Below, piece by piece: positions 6,611-64,000 of a DNA stretch of 64,000 nucleotides. This DNA comes from Rhizobium sp. SL86 (lineage in GTDB: Bacteria > Pseudomonadota > Alphaproteobacteria > Rhizobiales > Rhizobiaceae), in the NCBI RefSeq assembly GCF_026672545.1, contig NZ_JAPPRJ010000001.1:2295501-2359500 (forward strand). Reading direction: 5' to 3'. The notes beneath the pieces are model-generated. The model ran no database searches. It was not told the DNA's origin and worked only from the letters and a program-made list of their open reading frames with translations. Positions within the stretch are counted from its first letter, which is position 1; each line of letters begins with the position of its first letter. The position numbers were made by a program, and so were the translations under genes.

Positions 6611-8350
6611 TCAGGCGGCGCTGGCAAAGCGCGGCGAGCGGGTCTGGCCGTCCAGCGTGAACTGCACCATCAATTCGCGCAGGCGAGCGGCTTCGGCGGC
6701 AAGCGCGGCCGAGGAGGCGCTGGTTTCTTCGACCATCGCCGCATTCTTCTGCGTGCTCTGATCCATGTGATTGACCGCCGTGTTGATCTCGCCGAGACCG
6801 GTCGATTGTTCGCGGGCTGAGGTGGCAATCGCGCCGACATGTTCATTGATGGCGATGATCAGCTTGCCGATGTTGCTGAGGGCTGCACCCGTGTCGGAGA
6901 CGAGCTTCACGCCGACTTCCACCTCGTTGGTCGAGTTCTGGATCAGATCCTTGATCTCCTTGGCGGCCTTGGCGGAGCGCTGTGCGAGCTCGCGCACTTC
7001 CTGGGCGACGACGGCAAAACCCTTGCCGGCTTCACCGGCACGTGCGGCTTCGACGCCGGCGTTCAGCGCCAGAAGGTTCGTCTGGAAAGCGATGTCGTCA
7101 ATCACGCCGATGATCGAGGAGATCTGCGCCGCGGAGTTTTCGATGCGGCTCATGGCTTCGACCGCTTCCGAGACGACGGTGCCGGAACGCGAGGCGCTGT
7201 CATTGGCTTCTGTTGCGACGCGGCGGGCCTCTTCTGTCCGCTGCAGCGAGGACGAGACGTTTGCTGTGATCTCATCCAGAGCCGCGGCGGTTTCTTCCAG
7301 CGATGCGGCCTGCTGTTCGGTGCGGCGGGACAGATCATTGGTGTTTTCGGCAATGTTCTGCGTGCCGGCGTCGATGTTCATTGCCGCGGTGACGACCACC
7401 GACAACGTCTGGCGCAACTGGCGCACGGCATTGTTGAAGTTGGTGCGCAGTTCTTCATATTCCGGGGCGAAACGCTCATCGAGCTGGATCGTCATGTCGC
7501 CCAGCGACAGCGCACGCAGGCCGGCGGCCAGTGCATTGTTGGCCTTAGTCACCTCGACGAGGCGGGCGTGGTCTGCCTCTTCCTTCGTCCGCCGTTCGAT
7601 TTCGAGTGCCTCGCGGCTCGAATTGGCATCCTGCTGCAGCTTGGCGGTCTGGGCGACGCTATCCTTGAAATACTGGACCGCGCGCGACATCTCGCCGATC
7701 TCGTCGATGCGCTCCTGGTTGGGAACGGGTGTGTCGAGCGCTCCGGAGGAAAGCTTGTTCATGACACCCGACAGCGAAATCAGCGGCTTCGTGATGGAGC
7801 GCAGCAGGACGGTGAGGGCGAGTGCCGAGGCGAGCAGGGTGAGGCCGGCGATGGCCGCGAGACCGGTCAGCGAATTCCAGGTATTGGCCATGATGGAGCC
7901 GGTATCGAAAGCAAGCACCATCGTGCCGATGGTCATTTCCTTGTTCTCTTCCGTATGCTTCAGAGGCACGACGGAGAAGCGCAGCTGGCCGCTGTCATCG
8001 TCGGACTGGGCCTTGCCGGCTGCGGTCACGCCAGCGGCAACGGCCGTTGCGTCACCGGAGGAGAAAAAGGCCTTGCCGGTGTTGTCGAGAACGACGGCGC
8101 CCTTGAAATCGGGATCGGTCGCGACCGGTTCGAACGTCGCCTGCGCCAACCCCTTGTCGAACTGCCACATGGCGGTCGATGCGCCGGATGTCGTCATGGA
8201 GGCGGTGAGCCTGACCTTGTTGTCGAACATCTCTTTGGCGGATTTGGCCTGCGACCAGCCGGAGTAGATCGACAGCGCGGCGGAACCGACCAGGATCAGG
8301 GCCAGAGATGGCAACATGACCTGCATGCGAATGGATTTGCTTTTGAACAT
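6611..8350 (-). CDS. Methyl-accepting chemotaxis protein
   Basis: Transmembrane chemoreceptor, 579 aa from the ATG at 8350, which has a GGGAAG ribosome site six bases upstream (an ATG two codons earlier overlaps that site). Layout: membrane segment about 11-29, a small periplasmic domain about 31-158, second membrane segment about 161-184, HAMP about 184-236, a second HAMP-like stretch about 265-320, and the signalling coiled coil. The hairpin tip is clear (AFQTNLLALNAGVEAARAGE at 421-440, then GKGFAVVAQEVRELA). There is no C-terminal CheR/CheB-docking pentapeptide. The gene lies 58 bases downstream of a periplasmic binding protein gene in the same direction, suggesting that the two act together. 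Confidence 0.94.
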   Translation of the reverse strand: MFKSKSIRMQVMLPSLALILVGSAALSIYSGWSQAKSAKEMFDNKVRLTASMTTSGASTAMWQFDKGLAQATFEPVATDPDFKGAVVLDNTGKAFFSSGDATAVAAGVTAAGKAQSDDDSGQLRFSVVPLKHTEENKEMTIGTMVLAFDTGSIMANTWNSLTGLAAIAGLTLLASALALTVLLRSITKPLISLSGVMNKLSSGALDTPVPNQERIDEIGEMSRAVQYFKDSVAQTAKLQQDANSSREALEIERRTKEEADHARLVEVTKANNALAAGLRALSLGDMTIQLDERFAPEYEELRTNFNNAVRQLRQTLSVVVTAAMNIDAGTQNIAENTNDLSRRTEQQAASLEETAAALDEITANVSSSLQRTEEARRVATEANDSASRSGTVVSEAVEAMSRIENSAAQISSIIGVIDDIAFQTNLLALNAGVEAARAGEAGKGFAVVAQEVRELAQRSAKAAKEIKDLIQNSTNEVEVGVKLVSDTGAALSNIGKLIIAINEHVGAIATSAREQSTGLGEINTAVNHMDQSTQKNAAMVEETSASSAALAAEAARLRELMVQFTLDGQTRSPRFASAA

Positions 8351-47419: not shown

Positions 47420-48685
47420 TTAGAGATCGAGTTTGTCGATCATCGGCTGGGTGATCAGGCAGATGCCGCTGTCACTGCGCCGGAAGCGCTTGGCGTCCAG
47501 TTCCGGATCTTCGCCCACGATCAGGCCCTCCGGGATGGTTACACCGGCATCGATGACGACATTGCGAAGCTGCGCACGCCGGCCGATGCGGACATTCGGC
47601 AGGATGACGGCACCTTCAAGACGGGAATAGGAATTGGCCCTCACACCGGTAAACAGCAGGCTGTTGTAAAGCGAGGAGCCGGAGATGATGCAATCGCCGG
47701 AGACCACGGAAGAGACGGCCGAACCGCGGCGGTCTTCGTCGTCATGCACGAACTTCGCCGGCGGGGTGATTTCCGCATAGGTCCAGATCGGCCAGGACTT
47801 GTCGTAGATGTCGAGTTCGGGAACGATCGCGGTCAGGTCGATATTGGCCTGCCAGTAAGCATCGATCGTGCCGACGTCGCGCCAATAGGCTTCCTTCTCG
47901 AAATCGGAGCGCACGCAAGACTGGGTGAAGCGATGTGCGACCGCTTTGCCGTTCGCGACGATCCACGGAATGATGTCCTTGCCGAAATCGCGGCTGGAAT
48001 TGGGGTCGGCGGCATCCTTGCGCAGGCATTCCATCAGGAACTTCGTGTGGAAGACGTAGATGCCCATGGAGGCGAGCGCGAAATCCGGTCTGCCGGGAAT
48101 GCCCGGCGGGTCGGCGGGCTTTTCGACGAAATTGATGATCTCGTCCTTTTCGTTCACATGCATCACACCGAAGCCGGTCGCATCCATGCGCGGCACTTCC
48201 AGGCAGCCGACGGTGACGTCCGCGCCGGAATCCACATGCTGCTGCAGCATCAGCTCGTAGTCCATCTTGTAGATGTGGTCGCCGGCAAGGATGACCATGT
48301 ATTCCGGATTGTAGGCCTCGATGATGTCGATGTTCTGGTAGACGGCATCGGCCGTGCCTTCATACCATTGCGTTTCCGAGACGCGCTGGGAGGCGGGCAG
48401 GATGTCGAAGCTTTCGTTACGCTCCGGCCTCAGGAAGTTCCAGCCGCGCTGCAGGTGGCGGATCAGCGAATGGGCCTTGTATTGGGTCGCCACCCCGAAA
48501 CGGCGAATACCGGAGTTCAGGGCATTGGAGAGGGCGAAATCGATGATGCGGGCCTTGCCGCCGAAATAGACGGCCGGCTTGGCGCGGCGGTCGGTCAGTT
48601 CTTTCAGGCGGCTGCCGCGGCCTCCGGCCAGAACATAGGCCATGGCATCACGGGCGAGCGGTTGGCTTCTCTTTATTGTTGTCAT
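47420..48685 (-). CDS. glgC: Glucose-1-phosphate adenylyltransferase
   Basis: Makes ADP-glucose from ATP and glucose-1-phosphate, the committed step of glycogen synthesis. The 421-residue protein has [29 protein letters not shown] (nucleotide loop, allosteric residues), [26 protein letters not shown], and C-terminal left-handed beta-helix repeats ([18 protein letters not shown]). Rhizobial and agrobacterial enzymes are activated by fructose-6-phosphate and pyruvate. AGGGAGGG lies before the ATG. Confidence 0.95.
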
Positions 48686-48708
48686 GAATGGTCCCTCCCT
48701 TTACGCAA

Positions 48709-50924
<2,216 letters not shown>

Positions 50925-50925
<1 letters not shown>

Positions 50926-53387
50926 CAGGCTCTCCAGATCTCCGTCGCATATTGACGGATGGTGCGGTCGGAAGAGAACCATCCCATACGTGCGGTGTTG
51001 CGGATTGTCTTTTCGAACCACTGGGCGGGTTCGCTCCAGATCTGGTCGACATCGCGCTGAGCCTTGGCATAGGCATCGAAATCGGCCGCCACCATGAACC
51101 AGTCGTGATTGTAGAGCCCGTCGATCAGGCCGGAGAAGCGCGAGCGGTCGTCGGGCGAGAACACGCCGGAGGCGATCGCCGACAGCGCCTGCGAAAGCTC
51201 GCGCGAACCTTCGATGAGGGCGCGCGGATTGTGGCCATCGGCCCGCGTGCGGGCCACTTCCTCCGCCGTCATGCCGAAGATCACGATGTTTTCTGCGCCC
51301 ACATGATCCCGCATCTCGACGTTTGCGCCATCGAGCGTGCCGATCGTCAGCGCGCCGTTCAGCGCAAACTTCATGTTGCCGGTGCCGGAGGCTTCCATGC
51401 CGGCGGTCGAAATCTGCTCGGAAAGATCGGCGGCGGGCACCATGATCTCGGCGAGCGAGACATTGTAGTTCGGCACGAAGACGACCTTCAGCAGGCCGCG
51501 GACCGCCGGATCGTTGTTGATCACGCGCGCAACGTCATTGGCCAGTTTGATGATCAGCTTGGCGTTGTGATAACTCGGCGCCGCCTTGCCGGCGAAGAAT
51601 TTCACGCGCGGCACCCAGTCGAGTTCCGGGTGCGAACGGATCTGATCATAAAGCGCGACCGCTTCGATGATGTTGAGAAGCTGGCGTTTGTATTCGTGGA
51701 TGCGCTTGATCTGGATGTCGAACATGGCCGACGGGTCGAGCCGGATGCCCATGCGGCTACCGACGAGATTGGCGAGCTGTACCTTGTTGGCGCGTTTCAC
51801 CGCGGCAAACTTTTCCTGGAAGGAGGCGTCCGTTGCGAAGGCATCGAGCGCCGTCAGCTTTTCGGTGTCATCCTCGAAGGCATCGCCGATCGCCTCGCGC
51901 AGCAGGTTGGTGAGGCCGGGATTGCACTGCATCAGCCAGCGGCGCGGCGTGATCCCGTTCGTCTTGTTGTTGATGCGGGTCGGATAAAGCGCATGGAGAT
52001 CGGCAAACACCGTCTCCTTCATCAGGTCCGTGTGCAGGGCCGAAACGCCGTTGATGGAATGGGAGCCGACGAAGGCCAGGTTGCCCATCCGCACGCGGCG
52101 GTCGCCGTTCTCGTCGATCAGCGAAATCGCGCGGATCTGCGCGTCGCCGAACTTCTTTTCCTTGCGGGCGTCCAGCAGGATCTTCGTGTTGACCGCATAG
52201 ACGATCTGCATATGGCGCGGCAGAAGGCGCTCGAACAGCGGCACCGGCCAGCTTTCCAGCGCCTCCGGCAGAAGCGTGTGGTTGGTATAGGAGAAGGTCT
52301 GGCGGGTGATCTCCCAGGCCTCGTCGAAGTCCATGCCGTGCACGTCGGTCAGCAGGCGCATGAGTTCGGCAATCGAGACCGCCGGGTGCGTGTCGTTGAG
52401 CTGGATCGACACCTTGTCGTGCAGGTTGGTGAAGTCCGGATACTGCTGCAGATGGCGGCGCAGGATGTCCTGCAGCGAGGCGGACGAGAAGAAATACTCC
52501 TGGCGCAGGCGCAGTTCCTGGCCGGCCGGATTGGCATCTGCCGGATAAAGAACGCGGGTCAGCGCTTCCGCCTTGTTGCTCTCGCGCAGCGCGCCGATAT
52601 GGTCACCGGCGTTGAAGGCATCAAGCAGGATCGGGTCGATCGGCTGGGCCGACCAGAGGCGCAACGTGTTGACGCGTTTGCCGCGCCAGCCGACGATCGG
52701 CGTGTCGTAGGCCATGGCGATGACGCGCTCGGCCGGCTTCCACACGTAACGCGGTGCCTCGTCATAACCGCCGACGCTTTCCACCGAACCGCCGTAGCCG
52801 ATTTCGTAGGAGCTTTCGCGGCGCTCGAATTCCCACGGATTGCCGTGGGCAAGCCAGGTTTCCGGCAGCTCCACTTGCCAGCCGTCTGCCATCTGCTGGC
52901 GGAAGAGACCGTGCACGTAACGGATGCCATAACCATAGGCGGGGATGTCGACCGTCGCCATGCTTTCCATGAAACAGGCAGCCAGACGACCGAGACCGCC
53001 ATTGCCAAGGGCCGCATCCGGTTCAAGCCCGGCGATCACGTCGATATCGACGCCGAGCGATTTCAGGGCATCGCGCATTTCCGACATCAGGCCGAGATTG
53101 GTGACCGCATCGCGCATCAGGCGACCGATGAGGAACTCCAGCGAAAGATAATAAACGCGCTTGTCGCCGGTCCGGTACACCTTGCGGGTGGATTCCATCC
53201 ACTTGTCGATGATGCGGTCGCGGACCACCAGAATGGAGGCCGTCAGCCAGTCGTGCGGCTTGGCGACCTTGGCATCCTTGCCGATGCGATAGGTCAGGCG
53301 CTCGATAATCTCTTCCGCCAGGATCTTCGGATTGGAACTGCGGGGAGCGGGCTGGGGGATGTCTACCGGGGAGAGGGAGTTGTTCAT
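50925..53387 (-). CDS. glgP: Glycogen phosphorylase
   Basis: PLP-dependent GT35 enzyme that releases glucose-1-phosphate from glycogen. The 820-residue protein ends in the PLP region EASGTGNMKFALNGALTIGT (the Lys in GNMK binds PLP), with the DGANVEM stretch after it. ALGNGGLGRLAACFMESMAT, TNGITPRRWLMQCNPGL and VPNYNVSLAEIMVPAADLS are also diagnostic. First gene of the leftward glycogen operon; promoter should lie in 53388-53560, where I see no definite motif. Ribosome binding site before the ATG is weak. Confidence 0.95.
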
Positions 53388-53552
53388 CAGGTCGCCAACT
53401 TTTCTGTTCTGAACGAGATCGAGCTAGGTTCAAATTATCCGTTACAGTGTCTGCCGACAGTTTATGCACCGTTGCGGGACACATGCAATCTTCCAGGTGC
53501 GATGTTCTTCGCTGCTTTGCAAAAATCGTGATCGAACATGTGACAAGTATTT

Positions 53553-53598
53553 GTAAAAAAACACGAAGCGCCCGCACTTGTTCCGGTGCGGGCGCTTC
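53553..53598 (-). terminator. Intrinsic terminator of the TadG-like gene
   Basis: A perfect 13-bp stem (GAAGCGCCCGCAC / GTGCGGGCGCTTC) is followed on the minus strand by GTGTTTTTTTA. It separates the TadG-like gene from the glycogen operon promoter region. Confidence 0.92.
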
Positions 53599-53619
53599 AA
53601 GGATCGCGTATTTGCAGGT

Positions 53620-54897
53620 TCAATTGGTCAGGCGGACCGCGGTTTTTGCTGCCTTGCGGCCAATATCCCCGAAGGCTTTGACCAAATCGGTCATGTTGTC
53701 CGACTCGTAGTAATTTTCGTCGCCGCTTGCGCAGGCCTTCAGAAGCGACTTACCGCGGTCGGGTGCCATGAAGGCGACCGTGAAGACGGTAATGTCGTCA
53801 TCCTTTGCGGTCTGGCACTGGGCGCGGACCTTGTTGTCGATCGTCTGGTTCCAACTTGAGCTGTAGCCGGTCATCTCACCGTCCGTCATCAGCACGATGA
53901 AGCGGCCGAAATTGTCATTGCCCTTCGCCTTGTGCTGCGTCGCTTCGGTGTCGTTGGAACTCTTGAAGGCGGTCAGCGCGACGTCCAGTGCACCGGTTGC
54001 ATCGGTGCCGCCGGTCGGTACCGATGGCAGCGCTTCCACATATTCGGCCGCCTTGGTCGTGCCCCAAGCCGGCTTCTGTTCCTTTTGGGTTTCGTGTGTG
54101 TACGACACGGCACCAACGCGGATGAGCTTCTTGGCTTCCTCCTGCTGCAGGCTGACGCTCGTCACATCGGGGGCGGACGCCTTCAGCAGTTCGGTGAACA
54201 TGACGGAGGCGGCGGTCTTCAGAGCCGCAATCTTGGTCACGTAGTTGGTCGTCTCATACGTACCCCAGCAGTCGTACCAACCACACTTGTGCCACCCGGT
54301 GACCGTCTTTGTGGGCGTCACCGGGTCCACTGTCGTCGTATCCCAGGCCATCGAACCGGACCGGTCGAGCACCAGATACATCGACAGTGCATTTCCCTCG
54401 CGGGCGCTGTTGGCGGTGCTGGAAATGCTGATGGGTACCGTCTTGAAACCCAGCATCTGTGTCAGCGGATTGAGCTCGATGGCGTAGGTGGTGTTCATCG
54501 TGACTTCGAAGGCCTTGCTGGAGCCACCCGTTGAGGTGATCGTCGCCTCGGCGGATGTCGATCCCAGCAATTCGGCCTTGGCGGCGGCAAGCTGCTCCTC
54601 GGTCAGGCCCTGTTGTTCCAGTTCCTGGAGCTTCTGGCCGACCATATATTCCGTCGCCAAGGCCTCGGCTTCCTCCTCCGTCATCGCATCGGTGGTCGAG
54701 AGCTTGGCGGCGGCGGCCAGGGTTGCCGCATCGGCCATGGCTTGCAGATCGGCCTTCTGCTGCATCACGTTGGTCAGATCGATTGCCATACCACCCACGC
54801 CGATCGACAACGGCAAAAGCAGAGCGGTCATCATGCCGAAGTTGCCGCGGCGGTCCTTCATAAGGCGCAGGAGTGAAAAGCTGGTCATCATCGCCAT
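53620..54897 (-). CDS. TadG-like pilus-associated protein with vWA domain
   Basis: A protein of about 425 aa. The N-terminus RRGNFGMMTALLLPLSIGVGGMAIDLTNVM is the TadE/TadG-like membrane helix with a Tad-type leader (RRGN then hydrophobic). A linker (about 55-180) precedes a vWA domain whose MIDAS is intact: DRSGSM near 212-217 and TDGEMTG near 357-363. An insertion carries paired cysteines (HKCGWYDCWG) probably forming a disulfide. TadG proteins occur in Flp/Tad pilus clusters, but no other tad/cpa gene is nearby, so it is an orphan. Start chosen at 54897; ATGs at 54891 and 54888 are possible. Confidence 0.87.
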   Translation of the reverse strand: MAMMTSFSLLRLMKDRRGNFGMMTALLLPLSIGVGGMAIDLTNVMQQKADLQAMADAATLAAAAKLSTTDAMTEEEAEALATEYMVGQKLQELEQQGLTEEQLAAAKAELLGSTSAEATITSTGGSSKAFEVTMNTTYAIELNPLTQMLGFKTVPISISSTANSAREGNALSMYLVLDRSGSMAWDTTTVDPVTPTKTVTGWHKCGWYDCWGTYETTNYVTKIAALKTAASVMFTELLKASAPDVTSVSLQQEEAKKLIRVGAVSYTHETQKEQKPAWGTTKAAEYVEALPSVPTGGTDATGALDVALTAFKSSNDTEATQHKAKGNDNFGRFIVLMTDGEMTGYSSSWNQTIDNKVRAQCQTAKDDDITVFTVAFMAPDRGKSLLKACASGDENYYESDNMTDLVKAFGDIGRKAAKTAVRLTN

Positions 54898-55016
54898 CCG
54901 TTTCTGTTCATAAGAACTGAATGTACGAATACCGGTGGGCGATGGAGGAAACGCTAATGTAAATGCTACAATTTTAGCCAAGCGACCGAAAGCGGCGCGA
55001 TTTATGTCCTGGTTAA

Positions 55017-55898
55017 CTATTGCTTGAGGGGAACAACGTCCACGGCCTGCACCGTCTGATGACTGCCGTAACTCTTCAATACGCCGATCACGGGCGCGAT
55101 GTCGGAATAATCCCGGCCATAACCGACGACGATATGATCGGATCCTGCGGGAATGTTGTTGGTCGGATCAAGCTCGATGTAACCGGCGGCCTTGCCGCAC
55201 CAGATCCTGACCCAGGCATGCATGGCGTCCGCCCCTTCCAGGCGCTCCTTGCCCGGCGGCGGGATGGTGCGCAGAAAACCGCTGACATAACCTGCCGGAA
55301 TGCCGAGGCTGCGCAGGCCGACGATCATCACGTGGGAGAAATCCTGGCAGACGCCGCGCTTCAGCTTGAAGGCCTCCTGCGGCGTGGTGTCGACGGTCGT
55401 TGCTTCCGCGTCGTATTTGAAGTCCTTGTGGATGCGCTGGCAGAGCGCTGCCGCAATCTCGCGCACCGTCTGACCGGGTTTGACAAGGTCGCGGGCATAG
55501 GCGGCGATCTGCTTGTCTGCGGGAAGGCGCGGGCTGGTGCCGATCAGGTGATGCGGGGAATCCGGATCAACGGAGCGCAGATCCGACAGTTCGGCCTGGA
55601 GTTTGGGCAGTTCCGGCGAAAGGTCGGCGGTCAGCGGCAATGCCTCCACCTGAACCCGCGCCTGCATGCGGATATCGAGTCTTTCATGCGGAGAGCGGAA
55701 GGCGATGGAGGTTGCCGGTTGGCCGAAAAAATCCGTGAAGCCGCCGCGTTCGTCCGCGGTCGGCGAGATGGTGATCGAACCCGCGATCAGGCGCTGGCGA
55801 TGGGCGATCGACAGCGGCATGACCCGCAGGATATGCCGGGCTCCCGAAGCCGGCACGTCGTAGATGTAGCCCATGTGCAGCGAGAGATCGTAAAGCAT
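55017..55898 (-). CDS. Transglutaminase-like cysteine protease family protein
   Basis: A 293-residue transglutaminase-like (COG1305) protein without a signal peptide. The thiol protease-type triad is complete: Cys184 in RGVCQDFSHVM, His227 in MHAWVRIW, Asp244 in ELDPTNN. An N-terminal beta domain (Bact_transglu_N type) precedes it. Last of three genes in the leftward cassette, nine bases after the ATP-grasp gene. The family could cut, crosslink or transfer acyl groups on peptides; no substrate is known. No terminator with T-run is evident beyond it. Confidence 0.9.
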   Translation of the reverse strand: MLYDLSLHMGYIYDVPASGARHILRVMPLSIAHRQRLIAGSITISPTADERGGFTDFFGQPATSIAFRSPHERLDIRMQARVQVEALPLTADLSPELPKLQAELSDLRSVDPDSPHHLIGTSPRLPADKQIAAYARDLVKPGQTVREIAAALCQRIHKDFKYDAEATTVDTTPQEAFKLKRGVCQDFSHVMIVGLRSLGIPAGYVSGFLRTIPPPGKERLEGADAMHAWVRIWCGKAAGYIELDPTNNIPAGSDHIVVGYGRDYSDIAPVIGVLKSYGSHQTVQAVDVVPLKQ

Positions 55899-55907
55899 GG
55901 GGCTCTC

Positions 55908-58319
55908 TTATCCAAAATAGGTCTGGCCAATGAGGTCGGACAGCTTTTCCATCTCGGCCTCCAGCTTCTGGTAGATCTCGGTCGTCATCGTCTCCGGCGT
56001 CATCACCGCGAGCCCCGAATGCAGGCGCATCGATTCCCGCTCGAGGGCCGACATCTGGCCCGTGCCATGCGGGTGAGGAAGCTGTTCCACCTCGGTGCGG
56101 ATCTCGTTCAACTGGAAGAGGATCGAGCGCGGGTTCAGCGGGTCGAGCGCCAGAAGATCGGTTACCGTCAGGCGGGCCGTGTTGACGTTGTAGCGGCGGC
56201 GATGGGTCATCACGCTGTCGCCGATCTCCAGCAGCATGTCGAGCGAGCCGTCCGGCGCATCGGGGCCGGACATATGGCCGAGCAGGCGGGTCATGTGCAG
56301 GCCGCGTTCCAGATAACGACCGATGGAGAGGAAACGCCAGCCTGTGAAGCGGTACATGTTTTCATGCACCAGACCGGCAAAGCCCGCGAGCTTGCGCAAG
56401 AGCACGGTCATGGCATGCGCCGCATCGTCGCCGTGCTGCACGGCCTCGTGAAAACGCTTGGCGGTCTTGGCCAGATCGTTCAGCGCCAGCCAGCCATCCG
56501 GCGAGAAGCGGTCGCGGATATTGCTGGCGGAATAGATGGCGCTGTCGATGTTGCGGATCAGGGGTGCGGGCACGGCTTTCGCCATGTCCATGTCGATGCT
56601 CTTCATATAGCGCGTCACATCGGCGAGCAGCGGCTGTTCCGGATCGGCGCTTTCGGCAAAACGCATGTGCCAGGAGCGCAGGATGCGTAGCGCGCCTTCC
56701 GCCCGCTCGATATAACGGCCAAGCCAGAACAGGTTGTCGGCGGCGCGGCTCGGCAGGCTGCCCGGCATGTTGCGCGAGAAGATTTCTTCCGGTGGCAGAA
56801 GCGTCTGGCGTTCGACGGGCTTGTCGGAAACGATCCACACATCCGCCGCACTGCCGCCGGCCTGCATGGCAATTGCCGCCACATCGTCGCCGGAACCGAT
56901 GCGGGCAAAGCCACCCGGCATGATCTGCCAGCCCTTTTCCGTGCGCGCCGCAAAGACGCGCAGCGACATCGGCCGCGGCGTCAGCTTGCCGTCGACGAAG
57001 GCCGGCGTGGTCGACAGCGTCACCACTTCCTGGCCTACCAGCTGGTTGGCTTCCGCCGCCAGCCAGGCCTCGATCTCCGCCTTGGTGCCGCCGCGCTTTT
57101 CGCCGAGCACCGACTGGCCGTTGTCGTCAAAGAAGGGGGCACGGGAATAGGCCGGGCCGATCACCATCTTCTTGATGTTTTCCGCCACATGCTGGCGTTC
57201 CGCTTTCTGACCGCACCACCAGGTAGCGATCGAGGGCAGAATAAGCTCTTCGCCCAGCAGGCGACGACAGATGGTCGGTGTAAAGGCAAGCAGTGCGCGG
57301 GTTTCCAGAATGCCGGAGCCCAGCGCATTAACGATGGTGACCGAACCGGCGCGCAGCGCCTGCACCATGCCGGCAGTGCCGATATGCGAGTTCTGGTTCA
57401 ACTCAAGCGGATCGGCGTAAGAGGCATCGAGGCGGCGCCAGAGAACGCCGATCGGCTTCAAGCCAGCGACGGTGCGCACCATCACCCGGTCGTTGACCAC
57501 CGTCAGATCCTCGCCTTCCAGCAGCATGAAGCCGAGGTAACGGGCAATATAGGCGTGTTCGAAATAGGTCTCGTTGGCGGGACCCGGCGTCAGAACCGCG
57601 ATCCGGTCGTCCGGATAACGCTTGTGGGCCTGCAGCGCATCGCGGAAGGCGCCGAAGAAGGAGGCCAGCCGATGCACATGCGTTTCGCCATAGATATCGG
57701 AGAAGGCGCGGGTGGTGGCGACACGGTTTTCCAGCGCGAAACCCGCGCCGGAGGGGGCTTGCGTGCGATCCGTCAGAACCCACCAGTTGCCATCCGGCCC
57801 ACGGCCGATCTCGAACGAACAGAAATGCAGGTAATGGCCACGGGCGGGTTTCACCCCGACCAGCGGTCGCAGGAATTCCGGATTGGAGGCAACCAGGGCC
57901 GGCGGCAGGATGCCTTCTTTCACGAGCGTATTGTCGCTGTAGATATCGGCGACGATCTTTTCGAGAAGTTCCGCGCGCTGGACGAGACCGGCGGAGACCT
58001 TTTCCCATTCCTTGCCGTCGATCAGCACAGGCACATGCGAGATCGGCCAGCTGCGCTCGGCATTGCCCTGGGCGCCGTAGGAGCGATAAAAGACGCCAGC
58101 ATCACGCAGGTAACGATCGGCGCGGGCAAAACGTTCGTGCAGTTCGCCCTCCGACATGCGGCCCAGCGCATCTATGAGGGTCTGCCAGACCGGGCGGATC
58201 TGCCCGTCCCGGTCCAGCATTTCGTCGGAAACGCCCGGCAAGGCGCGATAGCCGAGGATGGGATCGTCACCGATCTCCTCATTATGCTCGGCGATCTCGC
58301 TTGCCGGATCAATTGCCAC
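55908..58319 (-). CDS. Fused circularly permuted ATP-grasp and alpha-E protein
   Basis: An 803-residue protein. Residues about 1-480 are a circularly permuted ATP-grasp domain (COG2308): VPVLIDGKEWEKVSAGLVQRAELLEKIVADIYSDNTLVKEGI, then TPGPANETYFEHAYIARYLG and VTIVNALGSGILETRALLAF are typical. Residues about 500-800 are an alpha-E helical domain (COG2307): NLFWLGRYIERAEGALRILR and GWRFLSIGRYLERGLHMTRLL. In many genomes these are separate genes; here they are fused. It should ligate an amine to a carboxylate by ATP, with alpha-E in an unknown supporting role. One base separates it from the upstream stop. Confidence 0.9.
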   Translation of the reverse strand: MAIDPASEIAEHNEEIGDDPILGYRALPGVSDEMLDRDGQIRPVWQTLIDALGRMSEGELHERFARADRYLRDAGVFYRSYGAQGNAERSWPISHVPVLIDGKEWEKVSAGLVQRAELLEKIVADIYSDNTLVKEGILPPALVASNPEFLRPLVGVKPARGHYLHFCSFEIGRGPDGNWWVLTDRTQAPSGAGFALENRVATTRAFSDIYGETHVHRLASFFGAFRDALQAHKRYPDDRIAVLTPGPANETYFEHAYIARYLGFMLLEGEDLTVVNDRVMVRTVAGLKPIGVLWRRLDASYADPLELNQNSHIGTAGMVQALRAGSVTIVNALGSGILETRALLAFTPTICRRLLGEELILPSIATWWCGQKAERQHVAENIKKMVIGPAYSRAPFFDDNGQSVLGEKRGGTKAEIEAWLAAEANQLVGQEVVTLSTTPAFVDGKLTPRPMSLRVFAARTEKGWQIMPGGFARIGSGDDVAAIAMQAGGSAADVWIVSDKPVERQTLLPPEEIFSRNMPGSLPSRAADNLFWLGRYIERAEGALRILRSWHMRFAESADPEQPLLADVTRYMKSIDMDMAKAVPAPLIRNIDSAIYSASNIRDRFSPDGWLALNDLAKTAKRFHEAVQHGDDAAHAMTVLLRKLAGFAGLVHENMYRFTGWRFLSIGRYLERGLHMTRLLGHMSGPDAPDGSLDMLLEIGDSVMTHRRRYNVNTARLTVTDLLALDPLNPRSILFQLNEIRTEVEQLPHPHGTGQMSALERESMRLHSGLAVMTPETMTTEIYQKLEAEMEKLSDLIGQTYFG

Positions 58320-58320
58320 G

Positions 58321-61300
58321 TCAGACTCCTATCGGCCGGCGCAAGTCGAGTGTCAGCGGAAATTCCGGCGACACCTGCTCCGACATCAAAACATACCGGC
58401 CAGCCGTATGCCCCCAAGGTTCGAAACGCGCAAGCCTTCGTGCCTCCGCCTCATTGCCATTGACGGGGAAAGTCTCGTAGTTGCGCCCACCGGGATGTGC
58501 AACGTGATAGACGCAACCGCCAATCGAACGCTCGGACCAGCAATCATAGATGTCAAAGGTGAGCGGCGAATTAACCGGCAGCACCGGATGCAGGCCGGAG
58601 GCCGGCTGCCAGGCCTTGAAGCGCACGCCGGCCACCGCCACGCCCTGTTCGCCGGTCTTCGTCAGCGGCACGGCGCGGCCATTGCAGGCGACGCGATAGC
58701 GTTCCGGATTGCTGGTCTCCAGCTTGACCTGCAGACGCTCGACGGAGGAATCGACGTAACGGACCGTGCCGCCGATCGCGCCCTGTTCGCCCATGACATG
58801 CCACGGCTCCAGCGCCTGACGCAGTTCCAGCCGGGCGCCTTCGTATTCCACTTCGCCGAAGAAGGGGAACCGGAATTCCAGCTGGGCCGCGAACCATTCC
58901 GGTCGGAAGTCAAAGCCGTTCTGGCGCAGGTCCGAAAGCACATCCATAAAATCCGCCCAGACGAAATGCGGCAGCATGAAACGGTCGGCGAGTGCCGTTC
59001 CCCAGCGCACGAAGGAGCCCTGGACCGGGTTCTTCCAGAAACGCGCGATGAGGGCGCGGACAAGAAGCTGCTGGGCGAGCGACATGCGGGCATTCGGCGG
59101 CATTTCGAAACCGCGGAACTCGATCAGGCCAAGGCGGCCCGTCGGCCCGTCGGGCGAAAACAGCTTGTCGATGCAGATCTCGGACCGGTGCGTATTGCCG
59201 GTCACGTCCGTCAGGAGGTTGCGGAACAGGCGGTCAACCAGCCAGGGAAGCGGCGGCAGACCCTGGCCCGGTGCCGGCACCTGGGCAAGCGCGATCTCCA
59301 GCTCGTAGAGGCTGTCGTGGCGGGCCTCGTCGATGCGCGGCGCCTGGCTCGTCGGACCGATGAAAAGGCCCGAAAAGAGATAGGAGAGCGAGGGATGGCG
59401 CTGCCAGTGCAGCACGATGCTTTTCAGCACGTCCGGGCGGCGCAGGAAGGGGCTGTCGTTCGGGTTGGCCCCGCCGACGACCACATGGTTGCCGCCGCCG
59501 GTGCCGGTGTGGCGCCCGTCGATCATGAACTTGTCGGCACCGAGACGGCTCAGGCGTGCTTCCTCGTAGATCGCCGTCGTGATCTCGACGCATTCCTGCC
59601 AATTGGAGGCCGGATGAATGTTGACCTCGATGACGCCCGGATCGGGCGCGACACGGATGACGTTCAGCCGCTCGTCATGCGGTGGCGTGTAACCCTCGAT
59701 ATGCACCGGCAGGTTCAACGCTTTGGCGGCACGTTCCGCCGATGCGATGAGGTCGAGATATTCCTCGAGCGCTGCGGTCGGCGGCATGAAGACGCAGAGC
59801 CTGCCATCGCGCACCTCGACCGAGATTGCGGTCCTCACGCGCCCGCCGATCTCCTCGTAGGACTGGCCCATCTGGGTCTGCTGGGCAATGTCCCGGCGCA
59901 GCGAATGCTCCGGCATCACGCGGCCCTTTTCCGTCGAAAAATCCGGCAGCGGCGGGCGCTCGACGGTCGGGTCGACCGGGTTGATATAGGGATACCAGGA
60001 GGGCGTGATATAGGGCAGTGAGTTCAGCGGCAGGCGGAAGCCGACCGGGCTGTCGCCGGGGATGAGGTAAAGCCGGCCGCGGCGGGTGCGCCATTTTTCG
60101 CTGACCCAGGTGCGGCCGGAGGCGCGCGTCTGCCAGGCCTGTACGGGCAACACGTAACCCGCCGGTGTCGTCAGTCCCTGCGAAAAGACCTTGGCGATGC
60201 GGTTGCGCTCCTCCGGGTCCTTCAGCTTGGAATTCGACGGATCGACGTTTTCCGGCAGATTGGCTTCCTTGACGATCCATTCGGCCGGATCTTCATAGGC
60301 GGGTGTCACGTTTTCCGGCGTGAGATCCAGCTCGATGGCGATCGCCTGCAGCAGGCGGGCTGCATCGGTATGATCGACCTCGTGATTGCGGCTCTCGACG
60401 GCAATCAGATCCGGATCGCTCCAGATCGGCTTTCCGTCCTTGCGCCAGTAGAGCGAGAAGGTCCAGCGCGGCAGGCTTTCGCCCGGATACCACTTGCCCT
60501 GACCGTAATGCAGGAAACCGCCCGGTGCAAAGCGCTGGCGCAGCTTGCGGATCAGCACATCGGCGCGGTCCCGTTTCGTCGGGCCGACGGCAGCCGTATT
60601 CCATTCGTCGGACTGGAAGTCGTCGATCGAGACGAAGGTCGGTTCGCCCCCCATAGTGAGGCGTACATCCTGCGCCTTGAGGAGATCATCCACCCGTTCG
60701 CCAAGCGCATTCAGCGCCTCCCAGCTTTCGTCGGAAAACGGCTTGGTGATGCGCGGATGTTCGGCAACACGCATCACCTTCATGGCGAAATCGAATTCGG
60801 TCTCGGCCTCGCCGTAATAACCGCCGGAAATCGGCGCGGCATTCTTGTAATGCGGAGTTGCGGCGAGCGGGATGTGGCTTTCGCCGGTCAGCAGGCCGGA
60901 GGTCGGGTCAAGCCCGATCCACCCGGCGCCGGGGAGATAGACTTCCGCCCAGGCATGCAGGTCGGTGAAATCCACCTCCGTGCCGGAAGGACCGTCAAGC
61001 GCCTTCAGATCCGGGGTGAGCTGGATCAGGTAGCCGGAGACAAAGCGGGCGGCGAAGCCTAAGTGCCGCAGCACCTGCACCAGAAGCCAGCTCGTGTCGC
61101 GGCAGGAGCCCTTGGCACGTTCCAGCGTTTCCTCCGGCGTCTGCACGCCGGGCTCCAGGCGGATCACATAACCGATTTCCTGCTGCAGGCGGGCATTCAG
61201 ACCAACGACCATATCGACCGTCGGCTGTTCGCTGCTGCGGTCGATGGTTTTCAGGAAGGCCTCAAGCAGCGGGCCGGTGGGTTCCGGCTTGCGGTAGATC

Positions 61301-61644
61301 GACAGATCCTCGACCAGCGTGTCCGGATAGGCGAAGGGCCATTTCATCGCCTCCTCTTCGACGAAGAAGTCGAAGGGATTGTAGACCGACATGTCGGCGA
61401 CCAGGTCGACCTCGATCTTGAACTCCGTCACCGGGTCCGGAAAGACGAAACGTGCGAGGTAGTTTCCGTAAGGATCCTGCTGCAGGTTCACGAAGTGATT
61501 GGCGGGGGTGACCTTCAGCGAATGGCTGAGAACTCTGGTGCGGGAATGCGCGGCCGGTTTCAGCCGTATGATCTGGGGTCCAAGGCGAACCGGTTTGTCA
61601 TATTTGTAATGCGTCAGGTGATAGATACTGGCCTTGATCGACAT
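58321..61644 (-). CDS. Large transglutaminase-like protein with DUF2126 domain
   Basis: The 1107-residue protein begins with a beta domain and a transglutaminase core: Cys181 in [11 protein letters not shown], His230 in [11 protein letters not shown], Asp246 in GLDPTSG, a complete triad. From about 300 to the end is DUF2126: [61 protein letters not shown] and [24 protein letters not shown]. In my recollection comparative work proposed DUF2126 to be a COOH-NH2 ligase-type (glutamine synthetase/GCS-like) domain, so the protein may combine amide-bond cleavage and formation. First gene of the cassette; AAGGAG before the ATG at 61644. Confidence 0.9.
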
Positions 61645-62016
61645 GGAACTCCTTGCCGGACCGTTGAAGCGGGCCCGCACTGAAACGAAGGAGTTGAGTT
61701 TGTGCAATGCAGGACAATAAAGCAAGGTTGTTTTGCCTCTGCCCTGCCAGGTCGAAAGCTTGTCTGAAAGTTGTTTCTAATAGAAATCAAGGCTCTACGA
61801 GCGGTGTCCGGCGGCGGGTCTTGGCCGGGCGAGGGGCGCATCTTGGCGTCTCTGGGGCTTGTCTTTCTTCTGCCCGTTTATGTTTCGAATGCCGCAATCG
61901 CAGGCGTTTCGGGGTGGCTGTCATCAAGCATAAACAAAAAGCCTGCGTGGTGGTGCACACCAAGCAGGCTTTCGCCTAACAATTCACCCATTCTGCTCAT
62001 TTTATATGCAGACGGC
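61645..62016. other. Intergenic region between the transglutaminase cassette and DUF2735 gene
   Basis: 372 bases that must hold the cassette promoter. It also contains the DUF2735 terminator. Several frames are open in it but none resembles a protein; the sequence is less GC-rich than coding DNA around it (for example TTGTTTCTAATAGAAATC at 61770-61787). Confidence 0.4.
61933..61972 (-). terminator. Intrinsic terminator of the DUF2735 gene
   Basis: On the minus strand AAAGCCTGC and GCAGGCTTT enclose a 17-base loop with internal symmetry and are followed by TTTTTG. Confidence 0.8.
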
Positions 62017-62220
62017 TCAGCTGAGCTTGCTCGTCGAATCGGGGCCTGCCTGGATCGCGTTGTCGTGATACCAGCCGCCCCCGAAAGCAAGATCGCTGTA
62101 ACGCGCCGTCTCCGCCTCGACTTTCACCTCCGTCCGATCGCTCCGCAGGCGCCGGCCGCGAAGGCCGCCGACGGGGAACTGGATGATGGTGGCAGTCTGT
62201 CTTTCGGGTGCTGCGTTCAT
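62017..62220 (-). CDS. DUF2735 family small protein
   Basis: A 67-residue protein of the small rhizobial DUF2735 family. The N-terminus MNAAPERQTATIIQFPVGGLRGRR with IIQFPVGG is the family signature; the rest is charged, with a Gly-rich GGGWYHDNAIQ segment near the end. No membrane or catalytic motif. It is divergent from glnII and shares its control region; this position is common in rhizobia. AAGGATAAGGCC precedes the ATG. Function unknown; a link with nitrogen control is inferred. Confidence 0.8.
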   Translation of the reverse strand: MNAAPERQTATIIQFPVGGLRGRRLRSDRTEVKVEAETARYSDLAFGGGWYHDNAIQAGPDSTSKLS

Positions 62221-62272
62221 GGCCTTATCCTTCGTTCATTCTTCCATTCCAGGAGATTATTTGATCATTTTT

Positions 62273-62331
62273 TGTGCATGATGCATTAAATTGCAGCGAC
62301 ATTGCTGCTTTCTTTGTGTGCATTATGCACA
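62273..62331. promoter_or_regulatory. Two palindromes between DUF2735 and glnII
   Basis: TGTGCATTATGCACA (62317-62331) is a perfect palindrome, and TGTGCATGATGCATT (62273-62287) is an imperfect copy. Their centres are 44 bases apart, about four helical turns. They sit about 200 bases upstream of the sigma-54 promoter and just before the DUF2735 start, as expected for enhancer sites of NtrC or similar. The sequence differs from the enteric NtrC consensus, so the binding protein is not certain. Confidence 0.5.
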
Positions 62332-62523
62332 TTTTCTGGTCTTCATGCAACTGTCATCATGAGGGGGGCGGATGTCTTCGCCGGTGCGTTTGACGTCATC
62401 TTCGTACAACGGTTGCGGGGCGCGACCTGTTCCCGCCGACCCTGTGCTGCCGACCGGAAATCTACCGGTCCGGCCGGGTCCGCTCCGGCGAACTTCAGGC
62501 GCTCGCTGGCGCCGCTGGCAAAC

Positions 62524-62539
62524 TGGCACGCAAAATGCA
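62524..62539 (+). promoter_or_regulatory. Sigma-54 (-24/-12) promoter of glnII
   Basis: TGGCACG-N4-ATGCA matches the RpoN consensus TGGCACG-N4-TTGCA with one change. It lies about 90 bases before the glnII start. glnII of rhizobia is known to be transcribed from an NtrC-activated sigma-54 promoter. Confidence 0.75.
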
Positions 62540-62629
62540 TTTCGTATCGCAGTCCCGGAGGCGGCGTCATGATTGGTGCCGCGGGTCGGGATCTGCTCAC
62601 ACCTCGCAGCGTAGAAACGAGAGAGACCT

Positions 62630-63664
62630 ATGACAAAGTACAAGCTCGAGTATATCTGGCTCGACGGCTACAAGCCGGTGCCGAACCTTCGCGGGAAGAC
62701 CCAGATCAAGGAATTCGACGCGTTCCCGACGCTGGAACAGCTGCCGCTGTGGGGCTTCGATGGTTCGTCCACGATGCAGGCCGAAGGTCATAGCTCGGAC
62801 TGCGTTCTGAAGCCGGTTGCCATCTATCCGGATCCGGCCCGCACCAATGGTGCGCTGGTCATGTGCGAAGTCATGATGCCGGATGGCGTCACGCCGCATG
62901 CATCGAACAGCCGCGCGACGATCCTCGACGACGAAGGCGCATGGTTCGGTTTCGAACAGGAATACTTCTTCTACGAAAACGGCCGTCCGCTCGGCTTCCC
63001 GGAGCAGGGCTACCCGGCTCCGCAGGGTCCGTATTACACGGGCGTTGGCTACAAGAACGTCGGTTCGGTTGCCCGCGAAATCGTTGAAGAGCACCTCGAC
63101 CTCTGCCTCGCCGCCGGCATCAACCACGAAGGCATCAATGCCGAAGTGGCCAAGGGTCAGTGGGAATTCCAGGTGTTCGGCAAGGGCTCCAAGAAGGCCG
63201 CCGACCAGATCTGGATGGCCCGTTACCTGCTGCTCCGCCTCTGCGAAAAGTACGGCATCGACGTCGAATTCCACTGCAAGCCGCTCGGCGATACCGACTG
63301 GAACGGCTCGGGCATGCACTGCAACTTCTCCACCACCTACATGCGTGAAGTGGGTGGCAAGGAATATTTCGAAGCGCTCATGGCCGCGTTTGCGAAGAAC
63401 TGGAAGGAGCACATCGACGTTTACGGTCCGGACAACCACCTGCGCCTGACCGGCAAGCACGAAACCGCTCCGTGGAACAAGTTCTCCTACGGCGTTGCCG
63501 ACCGTGGTGCCTCGATCCGCGTTCCGCACTCCTTCGTCAACAACGGCTATCGCGGTTACCTCGAAGACCGCCGTCCGAACTCCCAGGGCGACCCCTACGC
63601 GATCGCTTCGCGCGTTCTGGCAACGATCGCCGAAGTCCCGACGGCTGCTTCCGCTGCCGCCTGA
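62630..63664 (+). CDS. glnII: Glutamine synthetase type II
   Basis: Eukaryotic-like octo/decameric glutamine synthetase; ATP-dependent amidation of glutamate. The 344-residue length is that of GSII, well below type I GlnA (470). MTKYKLEYIWLDGYKPVPNLRGKTQ is the rhizobial start; GFDGSSTMQAEGHSSD, FGFEQEYFFYE (metal Glu), GINAEVAKGQWEFQVF, NGSGMHCNFSTTYM and the KHETAPWNKFSYGVADRGAS region (ATP and glutamate sites) follow. It has no adenylylation site of the type I kind. GAGAGAGACC precedes the ATG. Expression is expected under nitrogen limitation. Confidence 0.96.
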   Translation: MTKYKLEYIWLDGYKPVPNLRGKTQIKEFDAFPTLEQLPLWGFDGSSTMQAEGHSSDCVLKPVAIYPDPARTNGALVMCEVMMPDGVTPHASNSRATILDDEGAWFGFEQEYFFYENGRPLGFPEQGYPAPQGPYYTGVGYKNVGSVAREIVEEHLDLCLAAGINHEGINAEVAKGQWEFQVFGKGSKKAADQIWMARYLLLRLCEKYGIDVEFHCKPLGDTDWNGSGMHCNFSTTYMREVGGKEYFEALMAAFAKNWKEHIDVYGPDNHLRLTGKHETAPWNKFSYGVADRGASIRVPHSFVNNGYRGYLEDRRPNSQGDPYAIASRVLATIAEVPTAASAAA

Positions 63665-63688
63665 TCGATCGGGTGAATGCTATTTCGA

Positions 63689-63717
63689 CGGCATCGGAGC
63701 AATCCGGTGCCGTTTTT
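63689..63717 (+). terminator. Intrinsic terminator of glnII
   Basis: CGGCATCGG pairs with CCGGTGCCG (one G-T), followed by TTTTTC, 24 bases past the stop. Confidence 0.85.
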
Positions 63718-63772
63718 CGTTTGGGTTTGGGCTTGTTGAGAGAGCCGGTGCCTTCCGCCCGGGCGTCGGTTT

Positions 63773-64000
63773 TCAGGTGACCTCGCCGACCGCCTCGCGC
63801 CGCTGGCGGTCCAGTTCCTCGCTGTAACGACGCAGCGTGTGGGCTTCGCTCAACTGGCCGATCACCTTGCGTTCGATCAGGTTGTTGACCACCGCCAGCG
63901 CCTCCGCATGGCTCTGGTCGAAGATGGCGGCGGCTTGGCGCGCATTCATCTGTGGCAGCAGGAAATCGTTCTGGTGGCTGAGAAATTCCACCAGGCTCGT
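63773..64000 (-). CDS. CBS-domain C-terminus, probably of a ClC-type chloride channel
   Basis: The frame is open to the right edge, so the N-terminal part is missing and only about the last 75 residues are visible. The segment EFLSHQNDFLLPQMNARQAAAIFDQSHAEALAVVNNLIERKVIGQLSEAHTLRRYSEELDRQRRE is a CBS repeat (two strand-helix units) with the tail pattern seen at the C-terminus of alphaproteobacterial ClC chloride channels. MgtE- or IMPDH-type CBS proteins are the alternative. Convergent with glnII across its terminator. Confidence 0.6.
   Translation of the reverse strand, partial: TSLVEFLSHQNDFLLPQMNARQAAAIFDQSHAEALAVVNNLIERKVIGQLSEAHTLRRYSEELDRQRREAVGEVT

Follow-up and report, generated by a model that had tools for sequence, protein, structure and literature searches.

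A conserved ATP-grasp domain lacking its presumed catalytic residues in a DUF2126 cassette of Rhizobium sp. SL86

Which protein in a bacterial cassette of transglutaminase-like, ATP-grasp, alpha-E and DUF2126 domains would make an amide bond, and which would break it? The question is posed by three minus-strand genes at positions 55017-61644 of a 64,000-nucleotide stretch of Rhizobium sp. SL86 (contig NZ_JAPPRJ010000001.1, positions 2,295,501 to 2,359,500), here called the window. A preliminary description had taken the ATP-grasp protein, which is fused to alpha-E, for an ATP-dependent ligase whose amide product the transglutaminases cut or transfer, and this chemistry proves only partly supported. 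The tie of the cassette to amide-bond synthesis and cleavage is borne out at the level of prediction, and literature searches likewise turned up no reported substrate for a system whose prediction dates from 2008-2009. The ligase role of the fused ATP-grasp fares worse, as its presumed Mg/ATP residues are largely lost across 132 fused homologues. Two points had escaped the earlier account: DUF2126 too is a predicted ligase, and the presumed catalytic residues are missing from the fused ATP-grasp. The explanation that fits best, and whose chances we consider evenly balanced, is that the cassette is the 'DUF2126 half' of a two-part amide-bond system, in which DUF2126 is the ligase, the fused protein is a conserved pseudo-ATP-grasp, and a partner set acts in trans.

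An amidoligase/Anbu-type system is said to have been predicted by Iyer et al. in 2009. The cassette belongs to this system, which Iyer et al. set out in 2008-2009; what is added here is a pseudo-ATP-grasp that has been conserved and an internal duplication of alpha-E.

Three genes and two ligase-type domains

According to the list of open reading frames (ORFs) and Pfam, gene 1 (58321-61644, minus strand; 1107 amino acids) joins a transglutaminase-like domain (residues about 1-275) to DUF2126 (residues 279-1102), and an in-frame TTG upstream would permit an extension to 61725. Gene 2 (55908-58319, minus strand; 803 amino acids, GTG start) fuses a circularly permuted type 2 ATP-grasp (residues 97-474) to alpha-E (residues 522-802), and gene 3 (55017-55898, minus strand; 293 amino acids) encodes a second transglutaminase-like protein. 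The spacing, read directly, is 1 base (58320) between genes 1 and 2 and 9 bases (55899-55907) between genes 2 and 3, from which a single transcript is probable. The three-gene cassette is real, with the Pfam domains that had been claimed for it, including the fusion of ATP-grasp and alpha-E in one protein. Specifically, gene 1 matches Bact_transglu_N (E = 1.6e-25), Transglut_core (2.7e-18) and DUF2126 (E = 0, 1339.6 bits), gene 2 matches CP_ATPgrasp_2 (6.4e-139, covering profile positions 1-373 of 374) and Alpha-E (3.1e-60), and gene 3 matches Bact_transglu_N (4.4e-16) and Transglut_core (2.4e-19). Both transglutaminase-like copies thus fall under PF01841/PF08379, and the circularly permuted ATP-grasp under PF14403/PF04174. 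As the Pfam name of DUF2126 is 'Putative amidoligase enzyme', the cassette holds two ligase-type domains rather than one.

Both Cys-His-Asp triads read in the preliminary description are confirmed and near-invariant: all 139 first transglutaminase domains in the alignment carry C181/H230/D246 of gene 1 (within residues about 1-275), and among 128 second domains C184 and H227 of gene 3 are kept in all and D244 in 127. The surrounding layout was followed in 80 relatives, the best 80 of 595 stretches matched to gene 1, with architecture labels assigned by score cut-offs. An ATP-grasp-alpha-E gene lies downstream in 78 of them and the second transglutaminase too in 77, the order being DUF2126 protein, ATP-grasp-alpha-E, transglutaminase in 77/80; of the three exceptions, L077 and L116 run up against the end of a contig, and L111 showed no recognisable member of the set downstream. 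Because this order recurs, and because the ratio of non-synonymous to synonymous substitution rates (dN/dS) of the cassette's four segments is 0.047-0.092 against the closest relative, L054, the cassette is not a product of chance.

Loss of key residues in the fused ATP-grasp

The evidence on catalysis comes from an alignment of 132 fused and 44 stand-alone ATP-grasps, in which five key residues (D/E158, E171, N173, K332 and K379) are numbered after the stand-alone homologue in L003, a locus of the same genome. A further alignment of 34 rows comprised the window, 27 of 32 fused and 6 stand-alone sequences. All five residues are kept in 44/44 stand-alone sequences; among the fused ones 117 keep one, 15 keep two and none keeps more. 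Such loss in close relatives is what the preliminary description had named in advance as speaking against its proposal. E171, a presumed Mg ligand, survives in 1/132 fused sequences and the Mg ligand N173 in 0/132, with arginine in its place in 124, and the ATP-pocket lysines K332 and K379 survive in 0/132 and 14/132, as against 44/44 stand-alone sequences for each of the four. The window's own protein reads T, R, R and G at E171, N173, K332 and K379 and thus lacks the residue set of an active ligase: residues 183-185 of gene 2 (57765-57773, minus strand) are T-D-R where the stand-alone kind has the presumed Mg-ligand motif E-D-N, and the two lysine positions are R341 (57297-57299, minus strand) and G388 (57156-57158, minus strand). 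The fused kind has further lost most of the GGYG loop (385-388) and N470-S472; it mostly retains G474 and G475 and has K478 in 40/132.

The roles presumed for these residues follow E. coli glutathionylspermidine synthetase (Gss), in which E330-Y-N332 is the presumed counterpart of the Mg-ligand motif. The Gss letters at R316, D318, E330, N332, S335, S337, K498 and K533 agree with those reportedly described for its structure, and by eye the stand-alone kind's EDNARTPS, DDKAIY and VVKEVHGSGGYG resemble EYNADSAS, GNKAIL and AVKPIAGRCGSN of Gss. A sequence search found one relative of gene 2 with a solved structure, PDB 3n6x (a putative glutathionylspermidine synthase, E 7e-70), which aligns over 465 residues to the stand-alone profile with E-D-N intact, whereas gene 2 has lost the motif; with 474 residues in all, 3n6x also has no alpha-E, unlike gene 2.

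Could the fused protein still be an active ATP-dependent ligase, with the transglutaminases cutting or transferring what it makes? Its CP_ATPgrasp_2 match is strong, several arginines and D493 are retained, and a stand-alone relative from the Anbu operon releases phosphate from ATP (PMC6376114). Against the residue counts and the mostly missing glycine-rich loop, however, such activity appears very improbable. The physical link that had been proposed between a ligase and alpha-E therefore stands as a fusion, in which the partner of alpha-E is, given the residue loss, a probable pseudo-ligase.

The fused domain is nonetheless not simply decaying, since it is under purifying selection (dN/dS 0.08 to L054 and 0.36 to the distant L118) and keeps R173, R199, R295, R454, R473 and D493 (window protein numbering) in 127-132 of 132 sequences. 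Residue loss under purifying selection thereby marks a conserved pseudo-ATP-grasp. A tree was built from 107 of these 176 proteins (all 44 stand-alone and 63/132 fused, thinned among the 80 nearest relatives), and in it one branch with a Shimodaira-Hasegawa-like approximate likelihood ratio test (SH-aLRT) support of 100 parts the two kinds, so that in this sample fusion and residue loss go together. Another reading is that of a repurposed domain with a chemistry of its own, for instance with arginine in the place of the metal or with another phosphoryl, nucleotidyl or acyl transfer, rather than a mere scaffold. Such repurposing would suit the uniform changes of N173 to R and D330 to E (124/132 each), which do not resemble random decay, and the 50 positions that are at least 95% invariant. 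It is unlikely all the same, as no new cluster of catalytic-type residues has appeared and the replacements uniform at 95% or more are two, A to L and S to G. Literature text searches, thin on subscription papers, found no description of an inactive ATP-grasp of this kind, and the residue loss may already be noted by Iyer et al. 2009.

The alpha-E half to which this domain is joined (residues 511-803; 55911-56789, minus strand) is modelled as all-helical (predicted local distance difference test, pLDDT, 90.9) and is a tandem duplication with one E-R motif in each half, E538-R539 and E671-R672 in gene 2 protein numbering. Compared by hhalign, the two halves match with probability 99.2 (E 9e-20) in 45 stand-alone sequences, such as L003:8377-9318, and with probability 90.2 (E 1.5e-6) in 127 fused ones. 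Searches of the model against the PDB gave nothing convincing (best Foldseek E 0.5). A function by fold was likewise set aside, as the best VIA-align row (Z 9.7, root-mean-square deviation (rmsd) 6.3, 237 residues aligned) is a helical bundle below a meaningful level, and one of the top rows, the nitrate-sensor protein NasR, was not counted as evidence.

DUF2126 and the partner set

DUF2126 is the likelier ligase of the cassette, because its model has a glutamine synthetase (GS) fold and its candidate active-site residues are invariant in 140 sequences. Circular permutation is reportedly given by Iyer et al. 2009 as a trait of this GS-fold carboxylate-amine ligase. The AlphaFold model (mean pLDDT 78.0) was built from 34 sequences, comprising the window and 33 of the 37 DUF2126 sequences obtained from 40 class loci. 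Foldseek ranks YbdK first (E 1.3e-3, prob 0.99) and glutamine synthetases next, with none at E <=0.001, and VIA-align ranks glutamine synthetases first (Z 10.9, rmsd 3.9, 264 of 832 residues aligned), with Z of 8 or more for 193 of 999 chains. YbdK (1r8g) and the glutamine synthetases share a fold with the DUF2126 model at an identity of only 8-15% in the rows listed. Nine residues (E398, N400, N444, H445, R495, E498, E547, E567 and R569, domain numbering) are present in 140/140 DUF2126 sequences and are candidate active-site residues, chosen by conservation. Iyer et al. 2008 (PMC2588565) assigned the Rv2566 family to the superfamily of carboxylate-amine ligases, with which this fold agrees. 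Proteins of the Rv2566 type, a predicted peptide-bond maker, combine a transglutaminase-like domain with a carboxylate-amine ligase in the domain order of gene 1; the passage on them in PMC2588565 is silent on an ATP-grasp partner, whose residue loss is measured in the present analysis. Literature text searches, which lacked most subscription papers, returned no mention of 'DUF2126'.

Where, then, would an intact ATP-grasp come from? DUF2126 was found in 44/289 genomes of the class, 32/61 of the family and 120/398 of a Pseudomonadota sample that favours the window's relatives. Besides the window's own, 43 class genomes have DUF2126, and loci were examined in 40 of them (all but G025, G099 and G144) and in 20 of the 120, taken as one or two per family; these 20 lie in the same phylum outside the class, the particular group being known just for the Burkholderia record L175. 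The fused gene is present in 32 of the class loci and 18 of the phylum loci; within the 7-19 kilobase stretch around DUF2126 a stand-alone ATP-grasp accompanies it in 13/20 phylum loci, four of the 20 also having Anbu, and in 7/40 class loci, there with alpha-E, several class stretches ending at contig ends. A Burkholderia stagnalis plasmid (L175) carries all six gene types and no Anbu, an Acidithiobacillus caldus plasmid carries DUF2126, the stand-alone set and Anbu-like genes without the fused gene, and in L122, one of the 80 relatives, the neighbours are a divergent stand-alone set and Anbu. These surveys thereby reveal a two-part system, in which DUF2126-transglutaminase, fused ATP-grasp-alpha-E and transglutaminase form one part, and stand-alone ATP-grasp, alpha-E, often a transglutaminase and sometimes Anbu form the other. 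On the A. caldus megaplasmid (L176, 843-15435), ntrB/ntrC, DUF2126, ATP-grasp and alpha-E stand together with two Anbu-like ORFs, one under the Pfam cut-off, and the transglutaminase part of DUF2126 is a separate ORF.

In the window's genome the second part lies on contig C8 (L003 7510-10788) and comprises an ATP-grasp of 485, an alpha-E of 313 and a transglutaminase of 279 amino acids, and this ATP-grasp has all key ATP/Mg residues. It (L003:9331-10788) groups with that of the B. stagnalis plasmid at a support of 99, and horizontal transfer may account for this grouping. In the published Anbu operon (PMC5666114, PMC6376114), ATP-grasp, alpha-E and transglutaminase-like genes are followed by Anbu, and the first three occur in the same order on C8; the window's cassette differs from that operon in its degenerate fused ATP-grasp-alpha-E and its DUF2126, and in a genome where Anbu was not found. 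Anbu is reported as inactive on the substrates tried (PMC6376114). The Rlo operon of Pseudomonas aeruginosa also combines an ATP-grasp protein and a transglutaminase domain and is a different system, with an inactive, membrane-bound transglutaminase and a RimK-like ATP-grasp (PMC12239564). A search of the window's genome with the Anbu of L122 gave no match at E 1e-5; the genome has a PF00227 match at C1:1497364 (87.1 bits) and another below the cut-off. L003:6750-7556 and 6800-7447 were considered as possible Anbu genes and set aside after PDB searches found nothing.

The two parts also tend to share genomes. Within the class, a stand-alone ATP-grasp is present in 40/44 genomes with DUF2126 against 65/245 others (Fisher p 3e-16; G231 was counted on a partial match of 447.9 bits), and within the family in 32/32 against 20/29 (p 6e-4). 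Genomes with the fused gene have it in 31/31 cases in the family and, among the matches listed, in 39/42 in the class. The four DUF2126 genomes of the class that lack a stand-alone ATP-grasp among the matches listed are G099, G127 and G255, which are 63-84% complete, and G264. Anbu, by comparison, is found in 31/44 DUF2126 genomes of the class and 21/32 of the family and is therefore dispensable. Family genomes with a stand-alone ATP-grasp have DUF2126 in 11/12 cases without Anbu versus 21/40 with it (p 0.018); that Anbu is an alternative to DUF2126 is only a lead, drawn from related genomes.

A further reading holds that DUF2126 or the stand-alone ATP-grasp adds a small ribosomal tag in the manner of Pup, which the transglutaminase-like enzymes would strip off. 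The idea is credited to Iyer et al. 2009 in PMC6376114, and the superfamily of carboxylate-amine ligases also includes the Pup ligase (PMC2588565). It seems decidedly unlikely here, as the 1.2 kilobases searched upstream offer no widespread tag gene: in the top eight families of small ORFs the widest is found at 14/80 loci, all Mesorhizobium, and the second at 13/80, in Rhizobium and Rhizobiales. Iyer et al. 2008 likewise report no Pup-like ORF (PMC2588565), and among ORFs of at least 120 amino acids no gene family from outside the system recurs in more than nine of 62 neighbourhoods, the most frequent being an ABC transporter ATPase. Four of the 62 (L037, L050, L143 and L152) have a member of a zinc-ribbon/Peptidase_Mx metallopeptidase family near DUF2126; Pfam was run on the L050 member.

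Downstream of the cassette (window 48709-54981) lie genes that we presume to encode a glycogen branching enzyme, a glycogen phosphorylase and a Tad-like protein. A phosphorylase-like gene is downstream of the cassette in 41/80 relatives. A tRNA search over window positions 48000-64000 found none.

Nitrogen limitation and a proposed mechanism

Under which conditions might such a system act? Mutation of ntrC in Burkholderia cenocepacia lowers by log2 6.0-9.4 a cluster that comprises DUF404/407, DUF403 and one small and one large transglutaminase-like protein (PMC5491218), these domains correlate with urea domains in marine metagenomes (PMC3597751), and Anbu is reported up in nitrogen-limited Pseudomonas putida (Hervas 2008, cited by PMC5666114); ntrB/ntrC moreover adjoin the DUF2126 locus of the A. 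caldus plasmid. From this published work in other genera, nitrogen limitation is the likely setting of the system. A more specific reading makes small amides, gamma-glutamyl ones or others, the targets of the transglutaminase-like and ligase domains in nitrogen starvation, with amines conjugated and released; it overlaps with the two-part account and names its substrate class. The NtrC dependence, the P. putida response, the urea correlation and the GS/YbdK fold of the DUF2126 model favour it, and it is a tentative possibility. Working against it, Anbu expression is reported as unchanged under several other conditions (PMC5666114), and the relatives lend no support to a sigma-54/NtrC promoter ahead of the operon: the window's GG-N10-GC site, which precedes gene 1 by 89 bases and scores 12 of 15, is lost in the two nearest relatives, the mean best score at the 80 loci is 10.84 versus 10.71 for mononucleotide shuffles, and just 5% of the 80 reach p <=0.05. 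Nor is glnII, which starts 985 bases from gene 1 (62630), a conserved neighbour, as it lies within the 9 kilobase flank in just 2/80 relatives. A near-consensus sigma-54 site (TGGCACGCAAAATGCA, window 62524-62539) stands 90 bases upstream of this glutamine synthetase gene and scores 14 of 15; the C8 ATP-grasp gene scores 12, and neither value was compared with shuffles.

The missing promoter signal and the unconserved glnII count against the two-part account as well, and several further points join them. Its reaction, complex and substrate are predictions, set beside a modelled fold, the residue loss and the co-occurrence that come from data. The roles of E171, N173 and the lysines are presumed from Gss biochemistry, a profile comparison with the whole E. 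coli Gss protein failed, and pseudo-enzymes can perform other chemistry. Pull-downs of Anbu-operon proteins gave no specific interaction in published work (PMC6376114). The co-occurrence counts ignore the kinship of genomes, and the complete genome G264 has DUF2126 without a stand-alone ATP-grasp among the matches listed, its DUF2126 gene (L021 8546-11845) being split by an in-frame stop. Finally, the fused protein occurs without DUF2126 in at least seven class genomes, and DUF2126 without the fused protein, among the matches listed, in nine; the fused protein is therefore not an obligate DUF2126 subunit.

The data are compatible with a two-part model in which DUF2126 would join a carboxylate to an amine using ATP, and both transglutaminase-like domains would hydrolyse or transfer the resulting amide. 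The pseudo-ATP-grasp-alpha-E protein would do no chemistry; most likely it would use the arginines it retains to bind substrate or product and would present this by docking to DUF2126 or to the intact partner set, with the intact stand-alone ATP-grasp working in trans. Somewhat doubtfully, the history of the system can be told as that of a ligase paralogue that lost its catalytic residues once and early, became joined to alpha-E and persisted in several Pseudomonadota classes as the dead coupling piece of a two-ligase relay. In such a relay, the pseudo-ATP-grasp would receive or sense the product of the ATP-grasp acting in trans and control the GS-fold ligase-transglutaminase.

If the fused ATP-grasp is dead, the search for the ligase shifts to DUF2126 and the stand-alone ATP-grasp, and both loci call for joint study. 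It would also supply a testable reason why assays on the fused protein alone should fail.

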